NCBI RefSeq assembly: GCF_040954645.1
Contig: NC_092807.1
Coordinates: forward strand, 28,597,353-28,661,352
Origin: Diabrotica undecimpunctata
Taxonomy: Eukaryota > Arthropoda > Insecta > Coleoptera > Chrysomelidae
DNA: 64,000 nucleotides
Direction of reading: 5' to 3'
Part shown: positions 26,407 through 39,863 of the stretch, in pieces
Layout: every line of letters starts with the position of its first letter
Position numbering within the stretch: position 1 is the first letter of the stretch
The notes under the pieces: generated by a model
Told to the model about the DNA's origin: nothing
What the model saw: only the letters and a program-made list of their open reading frames with translations
Databases searched by the model: none
Translations under genes and position numbers: made by a program

Positions 26407-27972
26407 CACTCGCGATCATAAAATCCGGGCCACCTTGAAAATTTTAAGTTTCTTGAATATTTTTGCATCTGGTGCAGTAATAACCTTTTTTTTAATTAAG
26501 CTAATGTATTTTTTACTTGTCATCAATATTTGTTTTGAAAGAAAAAAAACGGTTTTTTATTGTTTTTATTGAAAAAGCAGAAAATGCACAACGTGGTAAA
26601 ACATCAGTGGAATTTCAATGAATAATATCGTGTATTGCCTCCCCTTGCTGTAATAACCTCTTGCAGACGACGAAGCGTATTCTCAATTTTTCTCCGGATT
26701 ACATGTTGAAGTATGTTATTACGCTCTCTCAATAACAGATCCTTAAGCTCCTGTGCGTTGTTAGGAGGAGGTGTATGGGTTTGAATACGTTTTTTCAAAT
26801 CGTCCCAGAGATGTTTGATGGGATTGAGGTCCGGAGATCTAGCTGGCCAGGGTAAGCTCGTAATTTTAACCTCGTCCAAGTATTGCATACTGATCCTGGA
26901 AACGTGCGGTCGCGCGTTGTCCTGCATAAAAACGGCATCTTCTCCAAGCCGTGCCATGGTGGGCATAACATGTTCTTTCAGAATCTCCGTAATGTACTTT
27001 CGTGTAGTTAAGGACCCATTTTCGATGAAGGCTAATTCTGTGCGGAAGTCGGAAGATACACCTCCCCAAGCCATGACCGAGCCTCCACCAAATGGGATTC
27101 TTGCAGCAATGTAAGCTTGTGAAAATCGTTTACCGGTTCTCCTCCAAACTCTTACACGTCCATTGGATCCAGTTAGGCAGAAACGGGATTCATCTGAGTA
27201 TAACACTTTGCTCCAATCATTTATTCCCCAATGCGCGTATTTTCGAGCAAAAGCTAGTCGTACAACTCGATGCGCCCGGCCAAGTGGCGGTCCTGTAGTC
27301 ATTACCCGAGAAGATAGTCCAGAAGAACGAAGTCTTCTCCTGACTATTGCAACGCTAACATTGCAATTTCGTACTTCCTGTAGGCAATTTCGAGGCAGTT
27401 GAGGTCCTGTTTCGTAAAGCCTGAAACACAAGAACAGGGTCATCTCGTGTCGCGGTCGTTCTTCTTCGTCCAGAGCCAGGTCGTCTGGTTAGCAAACTCG
27501 TCTCCTGAAAGCGTTGAAGCACTCGTTGAACCGTAGAAAGGCTTACGCCAACAGTTATTGAGACTTGCCGTTGAGTGTGACCGTCTTCCACAAACGCAAC
27601 AATACGTGCCGTTGCAACAAAAGTCAAGGCATTTTTGGCAAAAAATAAACAATAATAAATACTAATAATGGCACTAATAAACACTAATGGAGGCAATAAT
27701 AAACGTTTGTTTGTTGCAATTGAACAGAAAGTCGAAGCACAAATGAGATATAAAACAAGCGGCAGTTACAGGTACCGTTCATTTTGGGAAGTGTACAGTT
27801 TTTTTGCGCAATCAGCATTATTGGAATTCTTTGTTACAAAGGAAACCGCTAAGCTGACAACCATTTTCAGAAACATGCATTAGTTTCTATTTGTGTTATT
27901 ATTATTTACGATAAAGCTCGTTAAAAATGAAATAACGGCGATTTTCAAGGTAACCCGGATTTTATGAGAGTG
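26407..27972 (-). mobile_element. Complete-length Tc1-like transposon
   Basis: 1566 bp between TA dinucleotides (26405-26406 and 27973-27974). Terminal inverted repeats share CATAAAATCCGGG and ACCTTGAAAA; the left end adds a few extra bases after CACTC. One transposase on the minus strand fills most of it. Length and organisation are typical of Tc1. Confidence 0.92.
26604..27650 (-). pseudogene. Tc1-like transposase with frameshift and Glu-to-Lys catalytic change
   Basis: The first frame (to about 27380) carries the paired-type HTH: GHTQRQVSITVGVSLSTVQR, then LLTRRPGSGRRR. A frameshift near 27370-27395 leads to the second frame (27443-26604). That frame holds the second HTH and catalytic domain: VLYSDESRFCL (first Asp), WGGVSSD, FMQDNARPH (second Asp), then SPDLNPIKHLWDDLKKRI. 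The family has NPIEHLW there. The codon at 26814-26816 encodes Lys, so the DD34E acid is lost. A stop follows NTRYYSLKFH. It is inactive even apart from the frameshift. Confidence 0.9.
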
Positions 27973-32444: not shown

Positions 32445-33532
32445 TTAGAGTTTATAAAATATTCCTGTAGATTTTAAGAAATTTACGATATTAATAACAG
32501 AAAAATTAGTGCCTAATAAATTACTTAAACTGTTAGGTATGTTAAATGTAAGACGATAATGGGCAAATCTATGACATTCAATTAATAAATGGTTAACGGT
32601 TATTTGTACATTACATGTTTCACAAATAGGTGGATCACTTTTGGACAGTAAATATGAGTGAGTAAGTCTCGTGTGTCCAATTCGTAATCTAGTTATCACC
32701 AATTGTTCTCTTCTGTTCCTGGTTGAGGGTTGCCAAGCTGTAACGTCATTTTTAATTTGCTTCAGTGATGTTTGAGAAGATTGCCATTCGTTTTTCCACT
32801 TGCACAAAACTCGATTTTTTATAAAAGCTTTTATATCACTCGCGGTGTTTCGATTCTCGGCTTTTTCTATATCGGCACATTTAGCAATTTCACTCGCGCA
32901 CTGGTCCGCACTTTCGTTGCCAGCAATGCCAATGTGGGATGGAATCCATATAAATCTGATGCTCCTAGAATTTTCTTGAGCCTTAATGAGTTCTAGTTTT
33001 ATCAGTTTCTCAAGGGGACCTTTAGGATAGATCTGTTTAAGGGTTTGAAGGGCGCTTAGTGAGTCACTTAAGATAACAGAGTTAGGAATGTTATTAGAAT
33101 TTATATGCATGATAGCTTTAAACATTGCATAGAGCTCAGCGGAGAAAATCGAAAAGAAGGTTGGAAGACGAAATTGATATGTATCGCTTGGAGTAACGAA
33201 TGCAGCACCTACTCCTTTATCACACTTAGATGCATCTGTAAAGATTTTATAGCTATGTTCGTAATGCTGACGGAGAATTAGATCTAGATTATTCTTAATC
33301 TCTGCGTAACAGTTAATATGTTTGTTGTACTGGGTTAGACAAGTATTTAAATTTGGGGTATTAATTATCCAAGGAGAGGGGCTTTTAATATTGATTGGAA
33401 AGGTATTTGGGAATTCGATATTAAGACATCTCAGGTAACACCGTACTCGCTCATAGTAAGGCTTATGTTTGGTACTATTGGTAAAGAGATTTATATATTT
33501 ATTAGTGAACGTATTATTAAATAGAGGTTTGT
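32445..33532 (-). pseudogene. RNase H and C-terminal region of the split I/Jockey-like element
   Basis: Frame 33125-32445 plus upstream sequence. I see YKIFTDASKCDKGVG (first Asp, about 33230), SAELYAMFKAI (Glu), NSVILSDSLSALQ (Asp), IWIPSHIGIAGNESADQCA (last Asp), then the RLRIGHTRLTHSYLL block and a Cys-His cluster (CETC, H, C). These are the catalytic residues and C-terminal zinc-like motif of retrotransposon RNase H. The frame is largely intact here, with the main break near 33130. Confidence 0.82.
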
Positions 33533-33536
33533 TTAC

Positions 33537-33920
33537 TGTTGTGAATTTATTAATTGTTTATTTAATTTATAATGTCTTGTTCTTATCTTAATTCATTAAA
33601 AAGCACAATAACTGATATTTATTTATTTTCACTAAACATACATAATTTATTAAAAAGCGAACGTAACATTTTATCGCGAGCGCGTCGTCCGAATTAACTG
33701 GCCCTCCATATAAAAATGTTGTATTTATATACGAAATCCTGATATAATAGAACAGCATCGAAAGATCGCATTGTCTTGCATCGAAAAATCGAGAAGCATC
33801 TAGTCGGAGAATTCACCATAATTTGAATCTAGAACCTCCGGCGAAATTTCTACAACAAAACAGAATATTAGTCATCATATATTTTACAGTTATTTTTAGG
33901 CCAGGATTTTTATCGTAACA
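33537..33920 (-). repeat. Gypsy 3' LTR
   Basis: 384 bp. It differs from the 5' LTR at one position that I can see (33747 A versus 39686 C). The polyprotein stop codon (33910-33912) lies inside it. Confidence 0.95.
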
Positions 33921-36900
33921 TTGCCCCCCTCTTAAAAGATGGTTCCTCCTGGAACCTTGTCGGGACTGGAACCGGAACTGTATGCTGGTATCGGCAACTG
34001 GACCCTCTTTTACAACTTCCAGTTGTATAAAAATGACAAGGGACGGTTTTCTCTCCGCACCAGTAACTATGCGGATTGCAACAGACTAACACCTGGACTT
34101 CGGTGTCTTTGAAGACCTCCTCCACCATATTTCGGATAACCCTCCAATCTAATTGGCGGCACTCCAACTTTGGCATGGCTAACTTTTGCACGTCGGACTC
34201 TAGTACGTGCTCTCTCAATTGAAGTAAGGCTTCCCATACATCTCGGTAGGTAGGTTGGTCACGGGCAGTGTCTTTTGTTACCAGGTAGAAAAGGTAACGT
34301 GATGCATCTTGGAGTTTCAAGGTTTTACCGGGAGCTGGCACCTGGCATTGAAGTTCTGCAACTCGACCAAACTTCCTTCGAAAGACGGATGCCAACCCTG
34401 GTGCGTCTTTGATACTGGCCGGGATGGTAAGGGCCAGCGAGTAGTCATCGGGGAGCGCGAGTAGATCTTGCTTTTCTTCAGTGGTAACACCATGTCTTGC
34501 TTTACCGGTACCTCCATAGGCACCCATGAATTCCTCAAACGTGAGGTCAGACACGTCTTGGACTTGGTTTACTTCCACTTCTTCATCTACGTCGTGGTCA
34601 CCTTCGAAAGACGCCAGCCGGTTATGGTGTACTATCATCGGCTTTCCCCTCGGAATCTTGCTTATTCGGTAGATGACATCGTTGATCTTCTCCATGATGA
34701 GGTATGGACCTTCCCAAAACTGCTGCAATTTGGGAGAACAACCTTTTCGCTTCTTGGGATTATACAGCCATACTTTGTCGTTCTTCTTAAAGCAACCCTT
34801 TTCGGCTTGTGTATCGTACCGTTTCTTCATTCGGTCGCTAGCGATCTGAAGGTGGGAACGGACCAACTCATGTACATCGTCCATTCTTCTTCGTAATTCG
34901 ATCACATAATCTTCACCTGCTACATCTTCTCCAGGTCGACACCCAAATTCTAGATCACAAGGTAGTCGCATTTCGCGTCCGAATAGGACTCTGGCTGGTG
35001 TCTGGCCCGTTGATTCGTTAACAGCAGATCTGTAGGCCATTGTGAAGAACGGAAGGTATTGGTCCCAGTCTCGCTGATGATCGGACACCATCTTTGTCAA
35101 ATACTTGCCAACTGTCCTATTCATTCGTTCTACCATACCATCCGATTGCGGATGATACGCGGTAGTTCTTGTTTTCTTCATGCCTAGTCTATCACATATT
35201 CCTTGGAATAGATCACTTTCAAAGTTCCTGCCTTGGTCACTATGGATCTCCAAAGGGACTCCAAATCGGCTGATATATTCTTGGATCAACTTATCTGCAA
35301 CGGTGGCGGCCTTCTGGTCTGGAAGTGCATAAATCTCGACCCACTTAGTGAAGTAATCCATTACTACCAACATGTACTTGCCCCCATTTTCACTTTCTGG
35401 AAATGGCCCTGCAATGTCCAAAGCTATTCTTTCAAACGGGCTTCCAACATTATATTGTCTCATAGGAGCTCTCCTTTTCCGGTGAGGCCCGTTACTCGTA
35501 GCACAAATAGTACATTTCTTACACCAGTCTTTTACGTCGTCGGAACTGTTCATCCAATAAAACCGTTCCCGAATTCGCTGAAGGGTTTTCCTTACACCAA
35601 AATGCCCTCCCGATGGACTGTCGTGTAACTGACGAAGTACTTCGGCTATTCTGCTCTTTGGGATCACCAACTGTCTTCTTTTCTCTGACCCGTCATCATT
35701 TTCCAGGACTCGTTTGAGCAAGCCATCTTCGATGATAAATGAGTCCCACTGGGCCCAATACGTCTTAACTACTGAGCATAGGTTTGATATTTCCTGCCAA
35801 GGTGGTCGACGGTTTTCCTCTTTCCATTTTCGGATTTTCTGTATAACTGGATCTCTCTCTTGTTCTTCCCTTATCTTAGTAGGCGTCCAGTCGTCGTTGA
35901 CAATCGTCGTTCTTAGCACTGCTGCTTCCTTGGATTCCGTTTTGTTGCAGTGGGAACACTCTGCGGGGCATGGCCTTCTGGAAAGAGAATCAGCATTTCT
36001 GTGGCTAACTCCGGCTCGGTGCTCAATCTTAAAATCGTATTCTTGGAGTCGTTCGATCCACCTGGCTATCTGACCCTCTGGATTCTTAAACTGCATCAAC
36101 CACTTAAGGGCGGCATGGTCGGTTCGGATTAAAAACTTCCTTCCATAGAGGTATTGATAGAAGTGCTCTACTGATTTAACTACTGCTAGAAGTTCTCTTC
36201 TCGTGACGCAATAATTCCGCTCAGGTTTTGAAAGAACTTTACTAAAATATCCGAGGACTCGTTCCTGTCCTCCTTGAATCTGAGACAGCACTCCTCCAAT
36301 TCCCACATTACTTGCATCCGTATCTAAGATGAACTCTCCTTCTGGCAGTGGATACCCCAAAATTGGTGCTGTTATTAAATGCTTTTTCAACGTTTCAAAG
36401 GCATTTTGGCAGTCTATATCCCAGCGGTATTCTCTTGCTTCCTCTGTAAGTCGCGTTAATGGCTTAGCGATATCTGCAAACTTATTAATAAACCTCCGGT
36501 AGTAAGTACATAGTCCAAGAAAACTTCTCACTTGATGTTTGTCAGTTGGTTTTGGCCATTCCTTAATGGAATCGATTTTTCCCTTATCCACGGCCACTCC
36601 TTCTTTACTGACTATATGACCCAGATAATTGACTTTACCTTGAAATAGCTGGCACTTCTTGGGGTTTAGCATCAATTGGGCAGCTTTAAGTCGATTAAAA
36701 ACGTTTTCTAAATTCCTCAAATGATCTTCGAATGTCTCCCCCAAGACGATTATGTCATCTAAATAAACCAGGCATGTTTTCCAAGATAACCCTCTCAACA
36801 CATTTTCCATAAGCCTCTCAAATGTCGCAGGAGCATTACAAAGTCCAAATGGCATAACGTTGAATTGCCACAATCCAGATCCTGTGGTGAAGGCTGTCTT

Positions 36901-39405
36901 TTCTTTATCGACTGGGTCCATTTCTACCTGCCAGTATCCAGACTTCAAATCTAAAGTAGAAAACAATTTACTTCCAGCCAATGTGTCCAATGTGTCATCG
37001 ATCCGAGGCAGAGGATAACTATCTTTCTTGGTAACGTTGTTCAGCAAACGGTAATCCACACAGAACCTCGTCGTTCCGTCTTTCTTCTTAACCAGGACCA
37101 CCGGAGAGACCCATGGGCTCGTAGAAGGTTCTATCACCCCGTCTTTCTTCATTTCCTGAACAATCGTTTCAGCTTCCTCTCTCTTCGCCTGTGGTAATCG
37201 TCGAGCTGTTTGACGAATTGGCTTAGCATTACCAGTATCAATTTTATGCTTAACAACGGTAGTTCTTCCCGTCTTTCCTCCTTTCGGTACGAAAATATCA
37301 CGATACTGCCGAAGAAATTCCCTTAATTTCCTTTTCTCCATCTGATTTAGAGACTGTCCTGCAACTGCAACCATTTGGTCGAATTTGTCGTTGGAATTAT
37401 CAGATGTTGTCGCCTGACGAATTATGGATGTCACAGGTACACAAGTTCCTACTTTTGTCTCTTTCTTTATGGTCACTGGGTAGTCGTTGACATTGATAAG
37501 TCTCACAGGAATTTCTTTAGCCGAAGTCACCAATTCCTTTCCAATTATGATTCCACGGCCAACCTCATCGTCGTGGTTCCAAGGCTCCATCATAACAGGT
37601 CTCCCTTCGTCTACAATTCCCTGTAGTCGCGCTACTATGATCGTTTCGCTTCTCGCAGGCACGACTGTATCTTCTGTAATGGCTGCTTGCACAGTGTTGT
37701 CATTATGTGGATGGAGAAATACCTCCTCGTTGCCAACCTTGATTACCTTATTCTTAAAATCCAATTGGAATCCATGCATATTCATTACGTCCATTCCTAA
37801 TATAACATCCTCTTCGATGTCAGCAACTATAACAGTATGGACAAACTTTTCTGCCCCAATTCCCAATTGTACCTGGATTTCTCCATGAATGTTGGCATTT
37901 TCACCTGTAGCGGTCCGAAGTCGTAACCTCGTTGGTAACAGTTTCTTTCGGCTGTTTATAACTGTCGGGCGTATAATGGTTCTGGTCGCTCCGGTATCCA
38001 CCAACAACGTATGCTTTTTACCATTTATGTCTCCATCTACATATACACTATCTTCACGACATTTCAAAGAAGCTATTAGTATAAGAGGGTCTTTGGAAGA
38101 GTTCCGGGTCGAAGCTGCCCCCCTAAGGTTGACTCGTTCTGGTTTTCCTGATGGTGAGTTTCTTGATTTTATGGTCTTCTTTTTCTTGCATGTCATGCTT
38201 TTCATCAAATTAAAGAGCTGGTCAAGTTTATCTTCATCTCCTTCCTCTTTTACAGTCCTAACTTTATTGTAACCGCCAGAGGCCTGCGTAGCTGACTCGT
38301 ATTCGAGGGCGGCGGATAAAACATCAACCAGCGTCTTGTGACGAGCTAATCGTAGTGTTCTCTGCATTTCATGATCACGAAGACCATCAATAAACGTTTG
38401 AACGGCCAATTTTTCCATCATGTCTTCGGGAGCTGTTGGATAAGCATATCGTACTAATCTGGCAATATCTACCTCATATTCTTGAAGAGCCTCATCTTTC
38501 TTCTGTCTACGATTTTTAAGCTGCGACTGATATACATGTTCCAAATGTTCGTGGCCATATCGCATATTTAACCTCTTCTTCAGTTGTTCGAAATCATCGG
38601 TCTCCTCTACGGCTATGGTCTGAAGCACATCTAAGGCATCTCCTCGAAGAGCGATAGTCAGGTTTACAGCCTTTTCTTTTTCAGACCATCCATTCGCTCT
38701 TGCAGCTGATTCGAACTGTTTCATGTAGTTGTTCCATGACGATTTTCCGTCGAAAGTTGGGACTTTGACATGCACAGAACTTCCACTTCCTTCAAATTTC
38801 GGCCGTGTTTCCAACTTACATTTCGTCTCGTCTTCTTTTGTCTCCACTGTAATTGGATTGTTTCCTCTCTCTGCTGTCCCGGTTTCCTCCATCTTCTTTT
38901 CCATCTCTTTCCATATCTTTTCTTCGAAGGCCAACATATCGGCAGCAACTTGGTTTTTTAACGAAGATATTCTATCGTCCAGGGCAGACATCTCAGAAGT
39001 GACTTTAGAGATTTCCGAAGAGATGTTAGCAGAGACTTTGCTTTCCAGAGAAGAAATCTCGTTAGAAACTTTGCTTTCTAAAGAAGCGATGTCGCCGGAT
39101 ACTTTGTTCTCCAATGATGCGATGTCGCCGGAAACTTTGGCTACATTACCAGAAACTTTGGCTACATCAGAAGAAACTTTCGAAATATCGTCAGAAACTT
39201 TGTTCTCCAATTTCGAAATCGACGAGATGACAGCATCATGTTTGTCTTCAAATATATAAGTCTCTGGATCTAGTCCTTCTTCTAGCAAAGCGTTCTTTAG
39301 TCGTTGGACTAACTCAGCCTTTTTTCCGGTGGAAGCTAATTCTCTGTCTTCAAGATGTCTTCTTAAATTAGTCACTGTCAGCTCATAAATCGTAGCCATT
39401 TTCAC
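33910..39405 (-). CDS. Gypsy Gag-Pol polyprotein with SAP, macro and CCCH domains
   Basis: 1831 residues in one frame from ATG at 39405. Order: SAP-like motif 8-42; Ser-Lys-Val-rich coiled coil about 55-175; retrotransposon Gag about 215-370; basic linker without a CCHC knuckle; protease VDTGAT (469-474); RT about 730-930 with YLDD 881-884; RNase H about 1026-1145 (LDTDAS, HRNADSLS); integrase with an H-H-C-C site (H1261, H1268, C1298, C1301) and D1330, D1390, E1426 spaced 35 apart; GPY-type segment (WEGPY near 1564); macro domain about 1645-1775; CCCH finger C1790, C1798, C1804, H1808. Gag and Pol are fused without frameshifting, so the Gag:Pol ratio must be set otherwise. The ORF reads through the polypurine tract and stops 11 nt inside the 3' LTR. 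It has no envelope and all core catalytic residues. The macro and zinc-finger tail is unusual and suggests interaction with ADP-ribosylated targets or RNA. Confidence 0.95.
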   Translation of the reverse strand: MKMATIYELTVTNLRRHLEDRELASTGKKAELVQRLKNALLEEGLDPETYIFEDKHDAVISSISKLENKVSDDISKVSSDVAKVSGNVAKVSGDIASLENKVSGDIASLESKVSNEISSLESKVSANISSEISKVTSEMSALDDRISSLKNQVAADMLAFEEKIWKEMEKKMEETGTAERGNNPITVETKEDETKCKLETRPKFEGSGSSVHVKVPTFDGKSSWNNYMKQFESAARANGWSEKEKAVNLTIALRGDALDVLQTIAVEETDDFEQLKKRLNMRYGHEHLEHVYQSQLKNRRQKKDEALQEYEVDIARLVRYAYPTAPEDMMEKLAVQTFIDGLRDHEMQRTLRLARHKTLVDVLSAALEYESATQASGGYNKVRTVKEEGDEDKLDQLFNLMKSMTCKKKKTIKSRNSPSGKPERVNLRGAASTRNSSKDPLILIASLKCREDSVYVDGDINGKKHTLLVDTGATRTIIRPTVINSRKKLLPTRLRLRTATGENANIHGEIQVQLGIGAEKFVHTVIVADIEEDVILGMDVMNMHGFQLDFKNKVIKVGNEEVFLHPHNDNTVQAAITEDTVVPARSETIIVARLQGIVDEGRPVMMEPWNHDDEVGRGIIIGKELVTSAKEIPVRLINVNDYPVTIKKETKVGTCVPVTSIIRQATTSDNSNDKFDQMVAVAGQSLNQMEKRKLREFLRQYRDIFVPKGGKTGRTTVVKHKIDTGNAKPIRQTARRLPQAKREEAETIVQEMKKDGVIEPSTSPWVSPVVLVKKKDGTTRFCVDYRLLNNVTKKDSYPLPRIDDTLDTLAGSKLFSTLDLKSGYWQVEMDPVDKEKTAFTTGSGLWQFNVMPFGLCNAPATFERLMENVLRGLSWKTCLVYLDDIIVLGETFEDHLRNLENVFNRLKAAQLMLNPKKCQLFQGKVNYLGHIVSKEGVAVDKGKIDSIKEWPKPTDKHQVRSFLGLCTYYRRFINKFADIAKPLTRLTEEAREYRWDIDCQNAFETLKKHLITAPILGYPLPEGEFILDTDASNVGIGGVLSQIQGGQERVLGYFSKVLSKPERNYCVTRRELLAVVKSVEHFYQYLYGRKFLIRTDHAALKWLMQFKNPEGQIARWIERLQEYDFKIEHRAGVSHRNADSLSRRPCPAECSHCNKTESKEAAVLRTTIVNDDWTPTKIREEQERDPVIQKIRKWKEENRRPPWQEISNLCSVVKTYWAQWDSFIIEDGLLKRVLENDDGSEKRRQLVIPKSRIAEVLRQLHDSPSGGHFGVRKTLQRIRERFYWMNSSDDVKDWCKKCTICATSNGPHRKRRAPMRQYNVGSPFERIALDIAGPFPESENGGKYMLVVMDYFTKWVEIYALPDQKAATVADKLIQEYISRFGVPLEIHSDQGRNFESDLFQGICDRLGMKKTRTTAYHPQSDGMVERMNRTVGKYLTKMVSDHQRDWDQYLPFFTMAYRSAVNESTGQTPARVLFGREMRLPCDLEFGCRPGEDVAGEDYVIELRRRMDDVHELVRSHLQIASDRMKKRYDTQAEKGCFKKNDKVWLYNPKKRKGCSPKLQQFWEGPYLIMEKINDVIYRISKIPRGKPMIVHHNRLASFEGDHDVDEEVEVNQVQDVSDLTFEEFMGAYGGTGKARHGVTTEEKQDLLALPDDYSLALTIPASIKDAPGLASVFRRKFGRVAELQCQVPAPGKTLKLQDASRYLFYLVTKDTARDQPTYRDVWEALLQLREHVLESDVQKLAMPKLECRQLDWRVIRNMVEEVFKDTEVQVLVCCNPHSYWCGEKTVPCHFYTTGSCKRGSSCRYQHTVPVPVPTRFQEEPSFKRGAMLR
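33921..33936 (-). other. Polypurine tract of the Gypsy element
   Basis: On the minus strand AAGAGGGGGGCAA directly precedes the 3' LTR (TGTTACG). It is also coding for the Lys-Arg-Gly-Ala stretch near the polyprotein C-terminus. Confidence 0.85.
33982..34038 (-). other. CCCH zinc finger at the polyprotein C-terminus
   Basis: Residues 1790-1808 read PCHFYTTGSC then KRGSSCRYQH, with spacing C-x7-C-x5-C-x3-H. This matches the RNA-binding CCCH class, including the aromatic and Gly positions. A Pro-Val-rich tail follows. Confidence 0.88.
34081..34473 (-). other. Macro domain (TARG1/OARD1-like) after integrase
   Basis: Residues about 1645-1775. Matching blocks in order are SLALTIPASIKDAPGLASVF, RRKFGRVAEL, YLFYLVTKDTARDQPTY, LREHV, LAMPKLEC and a C-terminal EEVFKDTEV strand. 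These correspond to the ADP-ribose-binding loops and the Lys (here K1711) of TARG1-like enzymes. The Gly-Cys-Gly-Leu-Asp loop that supplies the second catalytic residue is shortened (ECRQLDW), so binding is more likely than hydrolysis. The assignment is by eye. Confidence 0.8.
39280..39384 (-). other. SAP-like motif at the polyprotein N-terminus
   Basis: Residues 8-42: LTVTNLRRHLEDRELASTGK then KAELVQRLKNAL. The leucine spacing, the Gly-Lys-Lys turn and the second helix fit the two-helix SAP DNA-binding motif. It could tether Gag or the integration complex to chromatin. Confidence 0.75.
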
Positions 39406-39455
39406 AATTTATTTTATATTCACTTGTATTATTATTATAAGTCTAATTTATGTTC

Positions 39456-39473
39456 GATCTCACTCTGACACCA
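39456..39473 (-). other. Primer-binding site of the Gypsy element
   Basis: On the minus strand TGGTGTCAGAGTGAGATC starts two bases after the 5' LTR. TGG at this position is the usual complement of a tRNA CCA end. I do not assign the tRNA. Confidence 0.7.
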
Positions 39474-39475
39474 TT

Positions 39476-39859
39476 TGTTGTGAATTTATTAATTGTTTAT
39501 TTAATTTATAATGTCTTGTTCTTATCTTAATTCATTAAAAAGCACAATAACTGATATTTATTTATTTTCACTAAACATACATAATTTATTAAAAAGCGAA
39601 CGTAACATTTTATCGCGAGCGCGTCGTCCGAATTAACTGGCCCTCCATATAAAAATGTTGTATTTATATACGAAATCCTGATATACTAGAACAGCATCGA
39701 AAGATCGCATTGTCTTGCATCGAAAAATCGAGAAGCATCTAGTCGGAGAATTCACCATAATTTGAATCTAGAACCTCCGGCGAAATTTCTACAACAAAAC
39801 AGAATATTAGTCATCATATATTTTACAGTTATTTTTAGGCCAGGATTTTTATCGTAACA
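39476..39859 (-). repeat. Gypsy 5' LTR
   Basis: 384 bp, partner of 33537-33920, single mismatch at 39686. It should hold the promoter, but I do not assign a TATA box. Confidence 0.95.
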
Positions 39860-39863
39860 TTAC

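Follow-up and report, generated by a model that had tools for sequence, protein, structure and literature searches.

Fish endogenous retroviruses with macro-domain open reading frames were reportedly described by Basta et al. in 2009. According to PMC4977317, endogenous retroviruses of fish carry macro domains. The integrases of chromoviruses end in a C-terminal chromodomain, as described in PMC3605345, and the main text of PMC6338049 describes insect retrotransposons with captured helicase domains and LTR elements with a DnaQ-like exonuclease. The macro domain protein TARG1 (OARD1, C6orf130) removes ADP-ribose from proteins and from nucleic-acid ends and interacts with PARP1, according to PMC7050489. 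Its catalytic dyad is Lys84/Asp125 in PMC7050489 and PMC9411070; the former names residue 125 as Glu, and the TARG1 chain used for comparison here has Asp.

The element described here lies in a window of 64,000 nucleotides of the beetle Diabrotica undecimpunctata, the window being the whole stretch of DNA that was analysed. Like the chromoviruses, it combines the Ty3/Gypsy layout with an extra domain ending the integrase (PMC3605345), but a macro domain followed by a CCCH zinc finger takes the place of the chromodomain. Unlike TARG1, the macro domain is part of a polyprotein, positioned behind the integrase and ahead of the CCCH finger, and both its Asp125 position and its two Gly loops are changed. 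The fish endogenous retroviruses are vertebrate elements with additional open reading frames, whereas the tail of the window element is fused to the integrase of a beetle Gypsy; this comparison is one of published descriptions. The DarG antitoxin, the bacterial partner of the DarT toxin, has a related macrodomain, and the best DarG entry has 24% identity to the window macro domain. The helicase and DnaQ-like elements resemble the window element in that an accessory domain was captured into a retroelement polyprotein. The captured domains are different, and the main text of PMC6338049 contains neither "macro domain" nor a word beginning with "ADP-ribos". Among the literature matches listed, mostly without subscription papers, no title or abstract start describes an integrase-fused macro-CCCH tail in a Gypsy element; macro domain and gypsy together led only to PMC4977317, and OARD1 and retrotransposon only to PMC4695847. 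Macro domains in retroelements and captured accessory domains are already known, and the integrase-fused macro-CCCH tail in a Gypsy element is what differs.

The window element is an intact and recently inserted Ty3/Gypsy LTR retrotransposon (Table 1). A single minus-strand frame of 1831 codons encodes Gag and Pol, and its Pfam matches follow the Gag-protease-reverse transcriptase-RNase H-integrase order of Ty3/Gypsy elements. The LTR pair and the target site duplication are both present, and since the two LTRs differ at one site and TTAC stands on both sides, the copy appears complete and recent. A TGG behind the 5' LTR and a purine run ahead of the 3' LTR are a candidate primer site and a candidate polypurine tract. 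No errantivirus-type envelope open reading frame was found between the integrase and the 3' LTR; because the Gag-Pol frame ends inside this LTR, there is no room for one. The ten Pfam families that match the piece behind the integrase at E up to 1 include no chromodomain.

Table 1. Features of the retrotransposon, in window positions.
Feature	Position	Strand	Remarks
Target site duplication TTAC, 3' side of element	33533..33536	.	
3' LTR, 384 bp	33537..33920	-	1 mismatch to 5' LTR (at 33747); TTAC-flanked
Single Gag-Pol frame	33910..39405	-	stop within first bases of 3' LTR
Polypurine tract AAGAGGGGGG	33924..33933	-	overlaps last codons; putative role, from sequence
CCCH zinc finger C-x7-C-x5-C-x3-H	33982..34050	-	PF00642 E 8.9e-7, 29.1 bits vs cut-off 20.5
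TARG1-class macro domain	34075..34491	-	
Loop 2 of macro domain	34153..34164	-	two residues shorter; catalytic Asp125 position not Asp
LVTK	34273..34284	-	Lys aligns with TARG1 Lys84, kept
Loop 1 of macro domain	34390..34407	-	DAPGLA vs GAGIA in TARG1
FEEFM-type helix, integrase-macro linker	34525..34539	-	F, E, F, M invariant in 5 aligned tails; helix in predicted model
Integrase C-terminal p58-type domain	34612..34710	-	PF22938 E 2.7e-13
Integrase catalytic core (part covered by match)	35212..35436	-	PF00665 E 6.9e-10
Integrase H2C2 zinc-binding domain	35491..35664	-	PF17921 E 2.0e-21
RNase H	36037..36345	-	PF17917 E 1.4e-34
Reverse transcriptase (Pfam-covered part)	36610..36990	-	PF00078 E 6.4e-32
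Aspartic protease	37780..38040	-	PF13975 E 2.6e-11
Gag-Pol joint	38164..38175	-	CCHC zinc knuckle of two-frame copies absent in window subfamily
Gag core	38374..38658	-	PF03732 E 2.4e-7
SAP domain, Gag start	39286..39381	-	PF02037 E 4.9e-6, above cut-off
Primer-binding-site region	39446..39475	-	TGG begins 2 nt after 5' LTR; putative tRNA pairing
5' LTR, 384 bp	39476..39859	-	
Target site duplication TTAC, 5' side of element	39860..39863	.	

Other mobile DNA is present in the window. A Tc1-type transposase open reading frame (PF13358, PF01498) occupies positions 26604-27443 of the minus strand. The open reading frame at 32445-33125 gives a weak RNase H match (26.1 bits vs a cut-off of 25.8) and is likely another retroelement remnant.

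The tail of the window copy belongs to the TARG1 (ALC1-like) class of macro folds by both profile comparison and predicted model. The preliminary description, made from the sequence alone, had placed a macro domain at the end of an intact Gypsy Pol and proposed that a TARG1-type domain had been captured. The arrangement is confirmed and the proposed capture is borne out, the profile match and the predicted-fold match both being strong. The Pfam Macro family PF01661 is not reached by the window copy in a Pfam search at E up to 1; the relative P0019 scores 22.5 against the cut-off of 22. The CCCH finger has both the Pfam score and the Cys3His spacing of PF00642. The pocket of the window copy deviates from that of TARG1. 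Lys84 is kept and Asp125 is absent, so the catalytic dyad is incomplete, and neither diphosphate-binding loop is conserved, loop 1 reading DAPGLA for GAGIA and loop 2 having lost two residues. Both dyad residues are kept in 33 of the 41 element rows, many of these being near-copies from Aromia. Seven rows without the Asp, the window copy included, form one clade (96/91 in one tree and 99/95 in another), referred to below as the window branch; five of them, among them the window copy, keep Lys84 and two have Arg. Outside this branch, P0047 has a degraded pocket and has lost the Asp separately. As its branch has lost a key active-site residue, the window copy likely no longer works as an enzyme.

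The tail is a regular part of this element in the genome. A search of the 1.74 Gb genome with the tail gave 6099 first-look candidates, and 150/150 scored copies had 99-100% identity along all 219 residues, 149 of them being stop-free. Because this ranking used the tail itself, a second search was performed with the integrase core alone. Of its 19398 first-look candidates, 150 were scored and 30 fetched, and the tail was found in 30/30 fetched loci (28 full, 2 gapped or partial). A chimeric or assembly artefact is ruled out by the copies chosen by tail and by integrase. The preliminary description had cautioned that the tail might be confined to one chimeric copy; the 30 integrase-chosen copies and the related tails of other beetles dispose of this concern. 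Where the window LTR can be aligned at the loci L005-L033, it finds no more than pieces at about 77-98% identity, and the tails next to them have about 99%; this suggests that there are subfamilies of the LTR or elements of recombinant origin.

In the 28 full integrase-chosen copies (two of the 30 loci, L077 and L085, were left out as gapped or partial) the whole tail has 23 synonymous and 34 other changes, a stop among the latter, at a ratio of 0.51 (p 0.0099). In the macro codons there are 16 synonymous changes and 17 others, the stop included, against an expected 2.81 others per synonymous change (p 0.0051). The other parts of the tail give no significant selection when taken alone. The macro variants shared by two or more copies, 3 synonymous and 4 not, are too few for significance. 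The ratio for the integrase C-terminus is 0.22; selection on the tail is thus weaker and the tail evolves faster. An earlier count of 20 synonymous to 1 non-synonymous change was set aside, because its 30 loci had been ranked by tail protein score.

A second macro-bearing family is present in the same genome. The Aromia host-like protein P0153, used as a query, gave 118 matches, of which 117 were weaker than the remaining one, a host gene (L034). The nine fetched from the weaker matches (L035-L043) are elements of this second family, with the CCCH motif in 8/9. Lys84 is replaced by Arg in 8/9 copies and Asp is kept in 8/9. The family is sister to the window branch (97/84), and eight of the nine copies (L039 was left out) show 21 synonymous and 22 other changes, one a stop (ratio 0.35). 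The host gene (G000 C3:100933771-100934703) encodes a TARG1-type macro domain with both catalytic residues in a 760-residue open frame, which also contains a weak second macro-like stretch.

Related tails are spread across beetles. A search with a piece of the window Pol recovered 12 proteins. Eleven of them, nine from Aromia, are parts of Pol that carry a related tail, and the twelfth is the host-like macro protein P0014. A profile of five tails matched 76 proteins; 59 carry an organism name, and 58 of these are from beetles of nine genera. The remaining named protein, from Glossina, groups with host proteins. The closest organism among the named matches is Diabrotica (P0048 75%, P0052 84%). 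The genera include Aromia, Diabrotica, Brassicogethes and Pyrocoelia, and hence both Cucujiformia and Elateriformia are represented. The CCCH motif was not found in the Pyrocoelia protein. Of the 41 element rows whose macro domain is complete, 20 show the integrase end by a strict motif and 28 have the CCCH motif immediately behind the macro domain; the rest are fragments or do not have it. Three Diabrotica records named OARD1-like, P0048, P0052 and P0074, look like element fragments; part of the window tail aligns with them, at identities of 75%, 84% and 55%.

In every tree the element rows group together as a single clade (100/98 with 41 rows, 100/99 with 23 and 100/99 with 22). To judge from these sequence trees, a host ADP-ribosylhydrolase gene likely supplied the macro domain in a single event, one capture being the simplest reading. 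In a 61-row tree the insect tandem-macro proteins are nearest to the elements, with weak support (84-95/52-71). The 61-row and 45-row trees single out no donor gene, because the split of elements and tandem genes in the 45-row tree, which contains the host tandem gene L034, reaches just 76/57 and holding the elements with the insect single-domain OARD1 gives a p-AU of 0.066. Phage TARG1-like domains were considered as donors and rejected as too distant (7 records, each below 60% identity). Proteins of two phages, gp437 of Bacillus phage G (JN638751.1) and orf36 of Lactobacillus phage LP65 (AY682195.1), match the macro domain with E values of 1e-13 and 1e-8.

Distances between tails are correlated with distances between integrase C-termini in four of five settings. 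One setting, of ten rows without the window, gives a Mantel r of 0.708 (1/10000). The others used 14 of 17 candidate rows, P0030, P0032 and P0042 being left out for missing integrase sequence. With a 70-residue integrase piece, the 14 rows give r 0.425 (32/10000). With 130-residue pieces the 14-row correlation is not significant (r 0.248, 664/10000). P0131 is the outlier of this setting, its integrase piece apparently bridging a deletion; without this row the 14-row settings give r 0.688 (0/10000) and 0.555 (3/10000).

The conservation of the pocket differs between the window branch and the rest of the family. Mean identity at 23 positions, which we take to be the ADP-ribose pocket of TARG1, was compared with that elsewhere in 10000 permutations. 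For 14 host rows the pocket has an identity of 0.83 and the other positions 0.48, and for 15 other beetle element rows the values are 0.83 and 0.50 (0/10000 in both), whereas in the window branch, represented by only six rows, they are 0.48 and 0.56 (8452/10000). P0048 and P0047 were absent from this first test; since P0047 has a degraded pocket, its omission worked in favour of the contrast. When P0047, the second family and P0193 are added to the 15 element rows, the values are 0.76 vs 0.49 (0/10000), and the addition of P0048 to the window branch, now seven rows, gives 0.47 vs 0.55 (8658/10000). The contrast thus stands after both have been put back. It is also seen when the dyad positions are dropped (0.75 vs 0.49, 1/10000, in the enlarged element set; 0.50 vs 0.56, 7549/10000, in the window branch), and all 300 random six-row subsets of the 15 elements keep a difference of at least 0.25. 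By these contrasts the pocket is clearly under selection in most of the family, whereas no such selection is visible in the window branch, within which many core positions are nevertheless invariant. The suggestion in the preliminary description that the shortened loop favours binding over hydrolysis of ADP-ribose is not supported for the window copy, as both loops are changed and the pocket of its branch (six rows) is no better conserved than its surroundings.

By combining these observations it is possible to propose a role for the tail. The captured macro tail can be regarded as an integrase-attached module that likely removes ADP-ribose in most of the family and is likely a non-catalytic binding module in the window branch, an account to which we give an even chance. 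It draws on the observed anatomy, relationship and retention of the tail, on selection on the macro codons, on the loss of pocket conservation, and on a predicted fold; the cargo, the partner and every biochemical step are what we infer. As chromodomains do on the integrases of chromoviruses, the tail would accompany the integrase into the integration complex. Host PARPs would put ADP-ribose on the cDNA ends, the integrase or the chromatin, hindering integration. The main beetle lineages keep the pocket residues Lys84, Asp125 and Gly123, and their domain is predicted to clear ADP-ribose. Since TARG1 acts on proteins and nucleic-acid ends, a pocket-intact tail would keep the cDNA ends or the target chromatin clear. 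In the window branch the catalytic Asp and both loops are changed while the fold and the zinc finger are kept; the tail is thus predicted to be retained for binding of nucleic acid or chromatin, not for erasing. For this branch, in which selection acts on the macro codons but no longer favours the pocket, a role in binding or structure is the likelier one, the CCCH finger serving for nucleic acid.

The loss of the Asp alone is no proof of inactivity, because DarG hydrolyses with a Lys and without the Asp (PMC7050489 and PMC9411070). The macro domain of the window copy might therefore still bind or remove ADP-ribose, for instance as a hydrolase of DNA-linked ADP-ribose that, like DarG, works with the Lys only; its Lys84, kept in most of its branch, and its intact predicted fold are consistent with this. 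We consider such activity rather unlikely, given the changes in both diphosphate loops, the two residues missing from loop 2, Arg84 in 2/7 rows of the branch and no preferential conservation of the pocket. The same loss of pocket conservation might mean that the element merely carries the tail along, as captured sequence that drifts without function in the window branch. Its faster evolution relative to the integrase C-terminus and the separate change of a catalytic residue in the second family (Lys84 to Arg) point the same way. Drift is very improbable in our view, as it sits poorly with purifying selection on the macro codons, the tail in every integrase-chosen copy that was fetched, the many core positions invariant in the branch and the related tails in two beetle infraorders.

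The zinc finger could instead be the working part of the tail, binding the RNA or cDNA of the element, with the macro domain mainly as a scaffold and with the finger standing in, in the fused subfamily, for a lost Gag knuckle. The frame lengths of the 150 scored copies are at least 1750 residues in 40 and 1400-1425 in 57. Junction pieces (L044-L063) show that 10/10 shorter-frame copies end Gag in a CCHC knuckle and have Pol in the -1 frame, whereas 10/10 longer-frame copies, like the window copy, have no knuckle segment and read Gag into Pol; as these 20 copies were picked by frame length, the counts describe types and not frequencies. In 28/41 element rows the macro domain is immediately followed by the CCCH motif, which agrees with a working finger, as does the absence of non-synonymous changes among codons 174-196 of the integrase-chosen copies (about 28, by a like rule), although these 23 codons are so short a stretch that this is weak evidence. 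Selection is not significant over codons 164-197 taken together, and we doubt that the finger is the main working part. It did not arise as a replacement, because the two-frame copies have both the knuckle and the CCCH finger.

Returning to the integrase-attached module, it may be speculated that beetle Gypsy elements bolted a host ADP-ribose eraser to their integrase as the first retrotransposon counter to PARP-based control, which would give the integration complex a de-ADP-ribosylase of its own for cDNA ends or target chromatin, and that the window branch is a dead-pocket tether in which the CCCH finger took over nucleic-acid binding, in a subfamily without the Gag knuckle and with Gag read directly into Pol. 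This bolder version has perhaps a small chance of being correct.

For annotation, the family carries a warning: "OARD1-like" genes of Diabrotica look like element fragments, while Pfam Macro misses the window copy. To our knowledge, control of genome parasites by ADP-ribosylation, and erasers as their answer to it, are well argued for RNA viruses and have little footing for retrotransposons. The beetle-wide lineage that keeps its pocket, beside a branch that loses it, can be considered a natural experiment, which makes the eraser question testable.
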